A DNA stretch of 40,344 nucleotides from a virus, in the IMG/VR virus record IMGVR_UViG_3300027971_002725, positions 1 through 40,344 of that record; one strand, 5' to 3'. The stretch's first letter is position 1. Each line of letters begins with the position of its first letter. Shown here piece after piece: positions 4,637-12,844 of the stretch. The position numbers and the translations under genes were made by a program. Below the pieces are notes generated by a model. The model did no database searches. It saw nothing but the letters and a program-made list of their open reading frames with translations, and was not told the DNA's origin.

Positions 4637-4710
4637 ACTCATTGCGGGCAGGAATCGAACCTGCGTTTGCCTCTTGGATGAGGCTTTCTTACCACTAGAA
4701 GACCGCGAGT
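4637..4710 (-). tRNA. tRNA-like gene with 6-base anticodon loop
   Basis: D-arm TTCT-AGTGGTA-AGAA and T-arm GCAGG-TTCGATT-CCTGC are standard. The anticodon stem GCCTC/GAGGC is perfect but its loop is only ATCCAA, one base short of normal, so Gly(UCC) or Trp(CCA) cannot be separated. The acceptor ACTCGCGG/CCGC...GAGT has a three-base bulge. Confidence 0.55.
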
Positions 4711-6698: not shown

Positions 6699-7496
6699 TT
6701 ATCGCCGGCGCAATATTTCTAAAATCAGCAACATGGCCGCAGCAAATAAAATCATCATAAAAGATGCTGATAATATGGTGGGAGAAAGTTGTTCGCGCAG
6801 GCCAGTCCACATCTGTCGAGGTAACGTGATCTGCTCCGGTCCTCCCAGGAACAACACCGCTACCACTTCGTCGAACGAGGTAGCAAACGCAAACAGAGCA
6901 CCCGACAACACACCTGGCCAAACAATGGGCAACATCACGCGCCTAAAAGCAGTGAGTGGTGATGCACCCAACCCACGTGCAGCTCGCACAAGGTTCATGT
7001 CAAATCCGGCCAGTGTGGCAGTGACTGTGATAACCACCAGCGGCATTCCCAACACCGCATGCACCAGCACAATGCCCAGCAGGCTATTGGCAATGCCCAG
7101 CTTGGAGAAAAAGAAATACGAGCCCACAGCCAAGATGACCACTGGCACGATCATAGGCGATATCAACAGTGCCATCAGTAGGCGTTTACCAGGAAGGCTG
7201 CGATGAGTTAGCCCCACGGCCGCCAGTGTTCCTAACACAGTGGCCAGCAAGGTGGCCAGTACAGCAGTGATCACACTGTTGTAGATGGCATGCAGCCAGA
7301 CCAGGTTAGTAAACAAATCGCGAAACCAGCGCAGGCTGTATTCTTGTATAGGAAAGTTGAAATAAGGTTCGTTGTTGAATGCCAGAGGTACTACGACCAG
7401 CACAGGTGCAATCAAAAAGATCAAAACACATACAGAAAAACACCACAAGGACCAGTGCCCTATGCGCTGAGATAAGGTAGCGTACAAGGGTATCAT
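6699..7496 (-). CDS. potC: ABC permease, PotC/YdcV-type
   Basis: 265 residues with about six membrane segments and the cytoplasmic EAA-type loop (AARGLGASPLTAFRRVMLP) that docks on the ATPase. The length matches PotC-like permeases. The start overlaps the end of the upstream permease by four bases (ATGA), which implies coupled translation. Starts further in would remove the first membrane helix. Confidence 0.9.
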   Translation of the reverse strand: MIPLYATLSQRIGHWSLWCFSVCVLIFLIAPVLVVVPLAFNNEPYFNFPIQEYSLRWFRDLFTNLVWLHAIYNSVITAVLATLLATVLGTLAAVGLTHRSLPGKRLLMALLISPMIVPVVILAVGSYFFFSKLGIANSLLGIVLVHAVLGMPLVVITVTATLAGFDMNLVRAARGLGASPLTAFRRVMLPIVWPGVLSGALFAFATSFDEVVAVLFLGGPEQITLPRQMWTGLREQLSPTILSASFMMILFAAAMLLILEILRRR

Positions 7497-8722
7497 TTGA
7501 GTTTGAAATTTCCAAGATCCACGATGCGGTCGTAGATGGCGTACAGCACTAGCACTGTGGCCAGTAGAATAGCTGCCAGTGCCGAGGCTAGGCCCCAGTT
7601 CAGAGAACGTCCCATGTTGTCGGCCACAAAGTAGCTGATCAGTTGATCAGTAGATCCACCTAGCAATGCTGGGGTAATGTAATAGCCCAGTGCCAGCATG
7701 AATACCAACAATGCACCTGCACTTATACCCGGAACACACTGGGGCAAGTACACACGCAGAAAGGCAGTGGTAGGATCGGCTCCTAGTGATCTTGCTGCCT
7801 GCACATACGATGCAGGGATTTGCCGCATGACTGCGTACATGGGCAGGATCATGAATGGCAGTAGGATATGTGTCATGGCCACAACTACACCAAAGCGATT
7901 GAATATCAGTGGCAGCGGCTCGGCAATCAGCCCTATGGCTTGCAACAGTGAGTTTATCACACCTTCTTTTTGCAGTATCACCATCCAAGCGGTAGTACGC
8001 ACCAGCAGCGAAGTCCAAAATGGCAGCAGCACCAGTATCAGCAACAGATTGGCAGTGTTGTCACGCAGGTGCGCCAACAGATAGGCCAGAGGGAACCCTA
8101 GCAACAAACAGGTCAAAGTCACAGCAAATGCAACTCCCAAGGTACGCAGATAAATCGAGATGTGGACACGCTGGTCTTGGGATTGTAGTGCAATGCTATT
8201 GTCTGGCAAACGCCGTGAATCTAGGGCCGATAAAAAAAACAAGGAATGCACAGGTGAGGCAAGATTGCGGATGTGGCCCCAAATGCGCGGCTGTATCCAT
8301 TCAGGATCAACAGATTCAAAAAAAGGAGCCCAAGGACCTTGCGCTTGGGTATCAATACGTCGAGCAGCCTGCATAAAGATCGTACGCAGTCCGGGTTCTT
8401 CAATGTTCAGTCGGTTGGCAATGGCGCCAGCCTTTTGTTCTTGCACAGCTACTTTGAGGTCTTGAGCCAATGCGGCAAATACAGATTCAGGGGGAACCTT
8501 ATCACGGGGGCCATTCCAGGCATCCAATGCACGCACTGTGCGTACTAGATTGTCCGGAATGATCGGGTCATATATGCTGTTGAACAATACTGTGCCTAAT
8601 GGCACAAGAAAGCTCACAGCCACAAACAGAAACAATGGTGCGATCAGCACATAGGCCCAAAAATGACCGCGCTGTTCTGCTTGACGCAGGCGCTGCCCTA
8701 GGGCGGTTGTGCTGTCGACCAC
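7493..8722 (-). CDS. potB: ABC permease, PotB/YdcU-type, with large periplasmic insert
   Basis: 409 residues. Membrane segments include WAYVLIAPLFLFVAVSFLVP near residue 25 and five more after residue 200. The EAA-type loop AARSLGADPTTAFLRVYLP is near the C-terminus. Between the first and second helix lies a soluble segment of roughly 140 residues (about 55-195), so the protein is longer than PotB of E. coli (about 275-285). Some YdcU-like permeases of proteobacteria have such an insert. It begins four bases after the binding-protein gene. Confidence 0.88.
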   Translation of the reverse strand: MVDSTTALGQRLRQAEQRGHFWAYVLIAPLFLFVAVSFLVPLGTVLFNSIYDPIIPDNLVRTVRALDAWNGPRDKVPPESVFAALAQDLKVAVQEQKAGAIANRLNIEEPGLRTIFMQAARRIDTQAQGPWAPFFESVDPEWIQPRIWGHIRNLASPVHSLFFLSALDSRRLPDNSIALQSQDQRVHISIYLRTLGVAFAVTLTCLLLGFPLAYLLAHLRDNTANLLLILVLLPFWTSLLVRTTAWMVILQKEGVINSLLQAIGLIAEPLPLIFNRFGVVVAMTHILLPFMILPMYAVMRQIPASYVQAARSLGADPTTAFLRVYLPQCVPGISAGALLVFMLALGYYITPALLGGSTDQLISYFVADNMGRSLNWGLASALAAILLATVLVLYAIYDRIVDLGNFKLK

Positions 8723-10018: not shown

Positions 10019-10876
10019 TTACTTGCTGATGTTCATCAAGGTCTTTGAATCGGCACCTACCACAGTAGCGGGCAGCTTGCCATCCCATTTTTCGATCCAT
10101 TGCAGTTGCACATAGTTTGCACCACCATTGCTTTGGATGGCCTGTGCTTGGATAGCGATGGCTCGGGCTTCACCTTCGGCTTGAGCGATACGGCTCTTGG
10201 CTTCAACTTCGATGCGGCGTAGGTCTTGTTCAGCCTTGGCAGTTTGCTGCACAGCGATGACCTTTTGTTCAATGGCCTTTTGGTAATCAGGACTGAATCC
10301 AAAATTCACCAGGCTGATGTTGCTCACAGTGATGTTGAACGGAGCCATCTTGGTGATCAAGTGTTGCAGGATCTCTTGGCTGACCAGATCACGCTTGGTA
10401 ACCAATTCTTCACTGGTGTAGTGGCCGGTCACACTCTTGAACGCTTCATTGATGCCAGGTCCAAGAACCTTTTCATCCACATTGAGACCAAACTCTTTGT
10501 AGATGTGCGGAACCTTGAGTGGATCCAAGCGATAATTCACCACGATGTCGGTGTGAACTTGTTGCAGATCCTTGGTGCCTGCACTTGCACCATCCAGCTT
10601 GGCCTTCTGTAGTCGAACATCAACATCAGCGATGTTGCTGATGGGGTTCACCATATGCACGCCTTCAGTCAGCGGCAGCGGATTGACCTCACCGAATGTG
10701 ATCTGCACACCAGTGTGCCCTGCTGAGATCACTGTGAAACTACTCCCCACAACAAACAACAGCACAGTGACTAGGCCTGCTGCGATACTTGCACCGATTT
10801 GCTTGAAGTCGGAAACAAATGCGATAGCACCTGCTATGATCAAGCCAATAACAAAACCTACGATAATGAGAAACAT
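10019..10876 (-). CDS. SPFH/prohibitin-family membrane protein
   Basis: 285 residues. Two hydrophobic stretches at the N-terminus (about 1-20 and 30-52), then a prohibitin-type SPFH domain (GHTGVQITFGEVNP, GVHMVNPI) and a long charged helix with a KAEQDLRRIEVEAKSRIAQAEGEA-like coiled coil (about 215-250). Prohibitins form membrane ring complexes that scaffold or regulate membrane proteases; phage homologs are known but poorly understood. Start supported by AAGGAG six bases upstream. Own promoter at 10901-10929 and own terminator at 9986-10005, so it is a single-gene unit. Confidence 0.88.
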   Translation of the reverse strand: MFLIIVGFVIGLIIAGAIAFVSDFKQIGASIAAGLVTVLLFVVGSSFTVISAGHTGVQITFGEVNPLPLTEGVHMVNPISNIADVDVRLQKAKLDGASAGTKDLQQVHTDIVVNYRLDPLKVPHIYKEFGLNVDEKVLGPGINEAFKSVTGHYTSEELVTKRDLVSQEILQHLITKMAPFNITVSNISLVNFGFSPDYQKAIEQKVIAVQQTAKAEQDLRRIEVEAKSRIAQAEGEARAIAIQAQAIQSNGGANYVQLQWIEKWDGKLPATVVGADSKTLMNISK

Positions 10877-10900: not shown

Positions 10901-10929
10901 ATTATACACAAAAAGAAAGGGCCTGTCAA
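10901..10929 (-). promoter_or_regulatory. Perfect sigma70 promoter of the SPFH gene
   Basis: TTGACA (10924-10929), 17 bases and TATAAT (10901-10906): a full consensus. The -35 hexamer covers the loop of the tmRNA terminator (10916-10937). Confidence 0.85.
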
Positions 10930-10937
10930 GGCCCTTT
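10916..10937 (-). terminator. Rho-independent terminator of the tmRNA
   Basis: AAAGGGCCT-TGAC-AGGCCCTTT followed by CTTTTT on the minus strand, about 40 bases after the tmRNA tag stop. Confidence 0.88.
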
Positions 10938-11118
10938 GGTTGTTTCTGTTACGAGGTATTTCCTACCCTAGGCTGCGTTCAGGCGGCCAAAGCGAACTGT
11001 TCGTCGTTTGCATTTACGTTTTTTGCTTCTACGGCCGAGTCTCCCCTGCCCTAACGGTTTTCACATTACCGTGCTGTCCACTCTGTTACTTGTTGCCCTG
11101 TCGAAACTAGTCTCCCCC
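10938..11118 (-). ncRNA. ssrA: tmRNA, coding piece of a circularly permuted gene
   Basis: The 5' end GGGGGAGACTAGTTTCGACA has the tmRNA start pattern (acceptor 5' strand followed by TTCGAC). Downstream lies CGTAAATGCAAACGACGAA, the resume region, then the tag ORF (ANDEQFALAA, TGA) at 10979-11011, then only about 40 bases before the terminator. No T-arm or CCA follows, so the 3' acceptor half is missing here. It is found upstream at 11315-11385 instead: GGGGGAG pairs with CTCCTCC there. This is the order of two-piece tmRNAs, as known from alphaproteobacteria and some betaproteobacteria. tmRNA rescues stalled ribosomes with SmpB. Confidence 0.9.
10979..11011 (-). other. tmRNA tag reading frame (ANDEQFALAA)
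   Basis: Ten codons GCA to GCC and TGA. The product ends in the ALAA degron recognised by ClpXP, and the ANDE start is the proteobacterial form. It resembles betaproteobacterial tags of the ANDExFALAA type. Confidence 0.92.
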
Positions 11119-11119
11119 A

Positions 11120-11302
11120 TCATAAAGAAACTTTCATATATGAATCCCGTAATACATTCATCTGTGCAAGAATTACCCGCATTTCTGAAAGAATTGCCAC
11201 CTTGTCAGTTGCATCTGCCAACTTAGCAAGTAAGTCGCCGTGATGTACAGTTAACTTTTTTAACTCAGTGGCAAATTCAATTTGCTCTTTGTGTGTTTTC
11301 AT
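11120..11302 (-). CDS. Small helical protein encoded between the two tmRNA pieces
   Basis: 60 residues starting MKTHKEQIEFATELKKL, with AAGGAAG seven bases before the ATG. The sequence is charged, rich in Leu, Ala and Lys, and should be mostly helical; no family is recognised. It begins 13 bases after the CCA of the tmRNA acceptor piece and its TGA ends two bases before the tmRNA coding piece. It therefore fills the intervening segment of the permuted tmRNA precursor. An alternative ATG lies one codon upstream. It may bind or process the tmRNA, or only be a passenger. Confidence 0.65.
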   Translation of the reverse strand: MKTHKEQIEFATELKKLTVHHGDLLAKLADATDKVAILSEMRVILAQMNVLRDSYMKVSL

Positions 11303-11314
11303 CAAACTTCCTTA

Positions 11315-11385
11315 TGGTGGAGGAGGGGGGATTCGCACCCCCGTCCAGAACACTTTTCTCTTTGCTTCATACAGCAATAACTCTT
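11315..11385 (-). ncRNA. ssrA: tmRNA, acceptor piece (T-arm and CCA end)
   Basis: The minus strand carries GTTCTGGACGGGGG, then T-arm GGGGG-TGCGAAT-CCCCC (11326-11342), acceptor strand CTCCTCC (11319-11325), discriminator A and encoded CCA (11315-11317). CTCCTCC pairs with GGGGGAG at 11112-11118 over seven pairs with one G-U. The GTTCTGGAC string preceding the T-arm matches the conserved 3' domain of tmRNAs. The 5' boundary is not known; it may reach into the ORF at 11388-11534, since the promoter lies inside that ORF. Confidence 0.85.
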
Positions 11386-11387
11386 AC

Positions 11388-11534
11388 TTATCGCCAAGTC
11401 TTTTTTGCGATCCAATGTTGGATTTCTTGCACACGCCACGCTAGTCCCCATGGCAGTGTGAAAAATATCTTTGTACCATCAGGAGTATACATGGTCTTAC
11501 CATCGCTGTCAACCCCCATCAATCCTATAAACAT
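11388..11534 (-). CDS. 48-residue hypothetical protein
   Basis: ATG at 11534 with GAGGAG seven bases upstream. The product begins MFIGLMGVDSDGKTMY and ends AKKTWR. Its start overlaps the end of the zinc-ribbon ORF, which suggests coupled translation. The tmRNA promoter (11484-11512) lies within it, so the gene is read through from further upstream. Confidence 0.55.
   Translation of the reverse strand: MFIGLMGVDSDGKTMYTPDGTKIFFTLPWGLAWRVQEIQHWIAKKTWR
11484..11512 (-). promoter_or_regulatory. Sigma70-type promoter of the permuted tmRNA
   Basis: TTGACA (11507-11512), 17 bases and TATACT (11484-11489) on the minus strand. Predicted start near 11477, about 90 bases before the acceptor piece. Confidence 0.8.
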
Positions 11535-12113: not shown

Positions 12114-12188
12114 TGGTCCGGCGTAACAGAATCGAACTGCTATTTAGGGAGTAGAAATCCCCTGTATTATCCATTATACGAACGCCAG
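12114..12188 (-). tRNA. tRNA-Arg(UCU)
   Basis: Acceptor CTGGCGT/ACGCCGG, discriminator A and encoded CCA. D-stem GTA/TAC with GG. Anticodon stem GGGGA/TCCCT with loop TTTCTAC gives UCU. The T-loop TTCGATT is normal. Confidence 0.9.
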
Positions 12189-12193
12189 TTGTT

Positions 12194-12270
12194 TGGTGAG
12201 ACCTGAGTGATTCGAACACTCCACCCAGCGATTATGAGTCGCTTGCTCTAACCTAATGAGCTAAGGTCCC
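12194..12270 (-). tRNA. tRNA-Met(CAU)
   Basis: Acceptor GGGACCT/AGGTCTC, discriminator A and encoded CCA. Anticodon stem AGCGA/TCGCT with loop CTCATAA gives CAU. The first acceptor pair is G-C, so it is not an initiator type. It could be elongator Met or the lysidine-modified Ile2 tRNA. Confidence 0.9.
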
Positions 12271-12492: not shown

Positions 12493-12524
12493 CTAGTGAC
12501 ATATCTGGAGAAATATATCACTAG
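12493..12524. repeat. Imperfect palindrome CTAGTGA...TCACTAG
   Basis: Seven perfect pairs plus an ATAT extension, overlapping the last bases of the GIY-YIG gene. No T-tract, so either an operator or an mRNA 3'-end stabiliser. Confidence 0.4.
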
Positions 12525-12844
12525 ACGCAGCCGCGCATGTCGGTGTTGAGGTTGGGCTGATATTCGCGGATCATTTCACGCTCGGCAGCATGAGCTTCTG
12601 ACTTGCCGCGGATCACAGCCAGTATCTTGGAAGAGAATGACTCAACACCACGCTCGCGCATGGCTTCGTACAACAACCAAGATTTGTCCTCGCTACGCGA
12701 ACGATACACATGCTTGTTGAAACGCACCTTCACGCTCTTGAGAGGAGTGCTTTCAGTCTTGGCAGTGACTCCGATATAGAAGTCATCACCGGACTCCAGC
12801 ATGTAGATGATATGCGTACGATCTGAGCGCTTTTTTCTGTTCAT
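12521..12844 (-). CDS. GIY-YIG nuclease-domain protein (Seg-like)
   Basis: 107 residues. The GIY-YIG signature appears as HIIYMLES...DFYIGVTA (about residues 11-26), followed by a basic stretch with Arg and by the catalytic Glu in AAEREMIREYQPNLNT near the end. A single-domain GIY-YIG nuclease of this size fits phage Seg-type homing or repair enzymes. The -10 box ends only five bases before the ATG, so translation is predicted to be leaderless. The domain begins at residue 11, which fixes this start. Confidence 0.82.
   Translation of the reverse strand: MNRKKRSDRTHIIYMLESGDDFYIGVTAKTESTPLKSVKVRFNKHVYRSRSEDKSWLLYEAMRERGVESFSSKILAVIRGKSEAHAAEREMIREYQPNLNTDMRGCV

Follow-up and report, generated by a model that had tools for sequence, protein, structure and literature searches.

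Permuted tmRNA genes of phages can carry interchangeable small protein genes in their intervening segment

Why should a small protein gene lie between the two pieces of a split RNA gene? The question is raised by the minus strand of a 40,344-base virus fragment from IMG/VR (the window), in which a preliminary description had recognized a circularly permuted phage tmRNA with a 60-codon open reading frame (ORF) in its intervening segment (IVS). The RNA gene is found exactly where it had been placed: the Rfam model RF04321 (tmRNA_permuted) matched over its full length (1-213) at 11376-10979 (-) with 119.6 bits (5.8e-23; cut-off 47), ARAGORN independently called a permuted tmRNA with the tag that had been proposed, ANDEQFALAA, which ends in hydrophobic AA, and neither ARAGORN nor Rfam found a one-piece tmRNA elsewhere in the fragment. 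The acceptor strands GGGGGAG and CTCCTCC form seven of seven pairs across the IVS, including the tmRNA-typical G3-U70, and the acceptor piece has a T-stem with five of five pairs, the T-loop GTGCGAATC and an encoded CCA within UCC-A-CCA. The acceptor pairing, the start of the 5′ domain at 11118 and the T-arm and CCA end at 11315-11342 had all been claimed before and are upheld. Rfam detected no intron family at this tmRNA, and the T-arm is intact, without a T-loop group I intron. Judged from its sequence, the locus looks like a functional permuted tmRNA gene of a phage (Table 1). The match to a promoter upstream of it is at chance level for such a stretch and sits within a short upstream ORF.

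Table 1 Features of the permuted tmRNA locus in the window
Feature	Position	Strand	Remark
Candidate promoter TTGACA-17-TATACT preceding the whole unit	11484..11512	-	11/12 consensus
tmRNA acceptor (3′) piece, T-arm 11342-11315, encoded CCA	11315..11376	-	RF04321 model start 11376
IVS stem, 5′ strand: final A of CCA together with TAAGGAAG; doubles as Shine-Dalgarno site of the ORF	11307..11315	-	97% paired across loci
Intervening segment (IVS), 196 nt, missing from the mature two-piece tmRNA	11119..11314	-	between CCA and acceptor G1
Cargo ORF P0001, 60 codons plus TGA (11122-11120)	11120..11302	-	no homologues
IVS stem, 3′ strand, overlapping the last ORF codons and the first base of TGA	11122..11130	-	
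tmRNA coding (5′) piece; acceptor strand GGGGGAG 11118-11112, TTTCGAC	10979..11118	-	extends to ~10938
Tag frame ANDEQFALAA including stop	11011-10979	-	in the coding piece
Terminator-like hairpin 3′ of the tmRNA	10916..10937	-	9 bp stem plus T run, pattern match only

Several features were observed around the tmRNA. Within the terminator-like hairpin lies the TTGACA of a promoter with a 12/12 match to the consensus (TTGACA-17-TATAAT, 10937-10901 (-)) for the following SPFH-like gene, and such an overlap of terminator and promoter 3′ of the tmRNA also occurs in the related contigs L002 and L010. A fragment of a GIY-YIG-type homing endonuclease (12521-12844 (-)) has the tmRNA and a pair of tRNA genes (12114-12270) in its vicinity. 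Further away, two adjacent genes at 6699-8722 (-) both match phrog_1577 and represent a tandem duplication, and a tRNA-like gene (4640-4709 (-)), for which an anticodon of two bases was called and which is also present in L003, is located between tRNA-Glu genes.

The ORF begins 12 bases past the CCA and its TGA ends one base before acceptor G1, so that the earlier view of an ORF with its own ribosome site filling the gap holds, with spacings of 12 and 1 instead of 13 and 2 bases. It is preceded by the Shine-Dalgarno (SD)-like sequence TAAGGAAG, and its product was predicted by AlphaFold2 from the single sequence to form one long helix (residues 4-59, pLDDT 94). Searches with the 60-residue protein yielded no homologue in Pfam, PHROGs, phages or IMG/VR, and neither Pfam nor PHROGs identified it as an endonuclease; a DNA search of the window against cultured phages gave no match. 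Of dinucleotide shuffles, 2.5% leave the frame open. Taken alone, the ORF is weak and might be due to chance; that it is more than this is argued by the comparative evidence from other phages.

For this comparison, three IMG/VR scans, with the ORF-type 5′ flank, the acceptor piece alone and the 3′ flank, were followed by a structural finder looking for a T-stem, UCC-N-CCA, a 7-bp acceptor partner downstream and TCGA. We extracted 158 distinct permuted tmRNAs, mostly from uncultured phages and five from cultured ones. An IVS-spanning ORF, starting 6-18 nt after the CCA and reaching the IVS end, is carried by 89 of the 158, a class to which the window ORF (+12, -1) belongs. Such ORFs are present in 64 of the 71 IVSs of at least 140 nt; four of the other seven hold two tandem ORFs, and one of these second ORFs is closely similar to a single ORF elsewhere (L209 and L154). 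The short ORFs of L004 and L298 were set aside by judgement, as was L173, a false positive of the finder in a tRNA region. Since the 5′-flank and 3′-flank scans select for parts of the cassette itself (SD-ATG or the 3′ stem end), all frequency claims are drawn exclusively from the acceptor-piece-alone scan and from a scan with alpha-type T-arms. In these sets, anchored only in RNA, 24 of 29 IVSs of at least 145 nt consist to at least 70% of a forward ORF, compared with 1.2 such IVSs after shuffling and 4 when the reverse strand is read. The ratio is 7/10 in the acceptor-piece-alone set (shuffles 0.3, reverse 0) and 17/19 in the alpha-type set, which represents a second lineage (shuffles 0.9, reverse 4), while among shorter IVSs the ORF excess is modest in the former and little or none in the latter. 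We conclude that the IVS ORFs are coding as a class. The shuffles and the lack of homologues would allow the window ORF to be an accidental open frame in a long IVS. This is very improbable given the ORF's cargo-class start context, SD, length and C-terminal stem codons, and the ORF-less IVSs of the set are mostly only 25-126 nt long.

The RNA part of these loci is conserved as well. All of the 20 sampled cargo loci match RF04321 above the cut-off (78-140 bits), the acceptor strands are paired at 7/7 positions in 104 of 106 cases when only the acceptor piece and TTCGACAG are anchored, with covariation among relatives, and the tag frames are intact in most loci, with tags that end in -LAA or similar. 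These observations bear on the view that a formerly functional tmRNA was destroyed by the ORF, leaving the protein gene as the only part that counts. Some loci (L010 type), in which the T-loop or TTTCGAC region is altered, would agree with such decay; the preserved tags, covariance scores and acceptor covariation speak against it, and we give it hardly any credence. Nor is the ORF the cause of the split, as relatives without one have the permuted form, too. The cargo is optional, being absent from many permuted tmRNAs of phages. In cultured phages of Stenotrophomonas and Xanthomonas with a permuted tmRNA, the IVS is short, with the IVS stem and no credible cargo. A search for the cassette in bacterial genomes returned one chance match, in a MAG and without a tmRNA.

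How the slot and its content relate to each other is best seen among the closest phages, which we located via the neighbouring SPFH/prohibitin-like gene (10019-10876). In L002, where this gene is 95% identical, a different 65-codon ORF occupies the same context; in L003 (91%) the IVS is reduced to 65 nt without an ORF; in L004 it measures 85 nt and has no convincing ORF, and L010 contains yet another ORF. Among the window, L002 and L003, identity is 86-97% in the tmRNA flanks and the IVS differs, i.e., by sequence comparison the slot is kept and its content is replaced among close phages. Nearest to the DNA polymerase encoded in the window, at ~50% identity, are the polymerases of two jumbo phages, Phosso and Atu_ph07.

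Across all loci, the 89 ORFs encode peptides of 23-133 aa and fall into 43 clusters by BLAST (41 by phmmer; two are doubtful), counts that a more sensitive comparison may lower. Purifying selection is indicated by dN/dS values of 0.07-0.37 in 12 of the 15 informative cargo families, to which the window ORF, lacking relatives, does not belong. Most families had no match in database searches. Among those with recognizable features are a thioredoxin with the WCGPC motif (PF00085, 4e-21; L241, L261) and a CxxCxxCC protein (PF03692; L132), both above the Pfam cut-offs; in addition, 10 of 41 families encode strongly hydrophobic peptides of membrane type. A family of 122 aa occurs on 13 contigs, every time in the tmRNA slot. 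For family 0, an acetyltransferase-like nature was considered from a low-confidence model with weak matches (E 0.1 or worse) and is not claimed. The longest IVS cargo gene, of 133 aa, is located on the fragment L263, which also contains a COG2908 RNA motif (L263:159-203; RF02939, 70.9 bits). No members of families 0 and 2 or of the L263 cargo were found in cultured phages. Homologous cargo with 65% identity is shared by L394, of the alpha lineage, and L224, of the other lineage, showing that cargo moves between slots; recombination via the conserved tmRNA flanks could effect such exchange. The alpha-type loci L391, L434, L382, L408 and L421 possess two-gene IVSs, in which a gene for a conserved peptide of 18-25 aa (..GDSDEEPSSKK..) precedes a gene for a membrane-type protein of 38-44 aa. 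As far as can be judged from these comparisons, the IVS is a recurrent slot for interchangeable small protein genes across phages.

One such gene resides in a cultured phage. The IVS of phage Melnitz, annotated only as SsrA, contains an unannotated 41-codon frame (46096-46218 of MZ577097) with the sequence MFKWLSKTRLVVITRDYF.., which has relatives in the alpha set (L363, 82%, and L428, 68% identity). It has been described that phages such as Melnitz have a permuted tmRNA and that in Melnitz it is controlled by a glutamine riboswitch (PMC9004378). This riboswitch (L314:46398-46446) is located downstream of the tmRNA coding piece, where the RF01849 match ends at 46390, and the next gene is therefore its more likely target than the tmRNA.

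The slot is bounded by an RNA structure that overlaps the signals for translation. The last A of the CCA and the first eight IVS bases pair with positions -12 to -4 relative to acceptor G1, resulting in a 9-bp stem that adjoins the acceptor stem. In this register 97% of the pairs form, compared with 52-61% in neighbouring registers, and covariation is present; in the alpha set the values are 89% and 64%. When stem partners were re-dealt among loci, 85% pairing was obtained for ORF-bearing and 67% for ORF-less IVSs, hence in the former a part of the pairing might reflect the fixed SD and stop motifs. The stems of the ORF type are also weaker (median -7.4 versus -11.1 kcal/mol without ORF). An SD is found in 15 of 19 ORF-bearing IVSs and in 2 of 57 ORF-less ones (unbiased set, p = 1.6e-10), and in the predicted fold of the window precursor it is paired with the end of the ORF. 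UGAU terminates the IVS in 79 of 89 cases with and in 51 of 69 cases without an ORF. Because this motif ends most IVSs irrespective of an ORF, we infer that the ORFs adopted a pre-existing structure, whose 5′ strand would have become the SD and whose structural UGA would have become the stop codon. The stop lies at -1 in 55 of the 89 ORFs, which leaves a single base between it and the presumed RNase P cut, and about a fifth stop 9-13 bases earlier. In Melnitz and in families 1 (8 loci), 8 and 10, no stop precedes the presumed cut; in some families the ORF continues into the coding piece, so the fixed stop is not universal.

We consider it probable that, within this slot for interchangeable small genes, a single transcript serves both as mRNA of the cargo and as tmRNA precursor and that translation competes with maturation. 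Ribosomes would load at the AAGGAAG just past the CCA of the acceptor piece, read the IVS and halt at its terminal UGA. Once they are gone, the IVS ends could pair (8-9 bp), lengthen the acceptor stem and mask the ribosome site, and thereby expose the sites at which RNase P and 3′ processing would free the two tmRNA pieces; for permuted precursors, processing with RNase P and tRNase Z has been suggested (PMC3985003). Translation of the IVS would require the stem to be open and maturation of the tmRNA would require it to be closed beside the acceptor stem, and the output would be set by the competition between the two. The freed IVS would be a mini-mRNA extending from the ribosome site to one base past the stop.

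A rival reading, to which we give a little below an even chance, is that the IVS is a tolerated spacer whose ORFs are translated without any regulatory relation between cargo and tmRNA, the SD and stop overlapping the stem only since the stem must be kept. The great diversity of the cargo, mostly without known function, and the many ORF-less relatives are in line with this. That SD and stop recur within the structure used for processing, across unrelated families and two lineages, speaks against it, but this fits economy as well as regulation.

A further possibility, which we regard as unlikely, is that the tmRNA controls its own cargo: maturation by RNase P would turn the IVS into a (near) non-stop message, ending one base past the stop or before any, and the product would be tagged for degradation by the tmRNA of the same transcript. 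The stop at -1 in most ORFs suits this scenario, and ArfA of E. coli provides a precedent (PMC3985003). Where no stop precedes the cut, as in families 1, 8 and 10 and Melnitz, only the uncut precursor would yield a terminated protein and the cut RNA would be a non-stop message. Yet a stop codon followed by one base may still be read normally, and the fifth of ORFs with earlier stops would be protected. If true, self-tagging would constitute a built-in switch that limits these small proteins to the time before tmRNA maturation or to saturated rescue.

The supposed discarded spacer of a split RNA gene is a gene slot in many aquatic phages, including jumbo-phage contigs of 300-364 kb, whose ribosome binding site and stop codon belong to an RNA-processing structure. 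This raises a testable link between translation of a message and maturation of the ribosome-rescue RNA. It also makes the IVS a new place to seek small phage proteins that annotation has overlooked, and it may help to explain why the permuted form of the tmRNA gene is retained.

A 2025 survey of tmRNAs described a tRNA gene in one IVS and a repeat in another (PMC11915505). An IVS protein gene is mentioned neither there nor in PMC9004378 and PMC4131195, in agreement with the preliminary description, which had supposed such genes to be undescribed, and literature searches, with most subscription papers outside their scope, returned no description of them. Permuted tmRNAs of Alpha- and Betaproteobacteria, Cyanobacteria (RF04321, RF01849, RF01850, RF01851) and phages have the same order of acceptor piece, IVS and coding piece, and bacterial and phage forms have paired acceptor strands, an encoded CCA and a tag frame in common; the loci described here differ in that the IVS carries a protein gene, with its SD and stop embedded in the IVS stem. 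The group I introns of tmRNA genes (tmRNA_intron), which sit in the T-loop and contain LAGLIDADG homing endonuclease genes (PMC11915505), likewise have a protein gene in a portion of the tmRNA precursor that is removed. These elements are self-splicing and always encode endonucleases, whereas here there is no intron, processing is presumably of the tRNA type and the cargo is unrelated to endonucleases. The arrangement also resembles that of arfA in E. coli, where an RNA-processing enzyme sets the 3′ end of the mRNA near the stop, beside ribosome rescue (PMC3985003); here, in contrast, the mRNA would be part of the tmRNA precursor itself, and control by tagging is hypothetical. Permuted tmRNAs in phages were known; what seems to be new is the content of their IVS, small protein genes.
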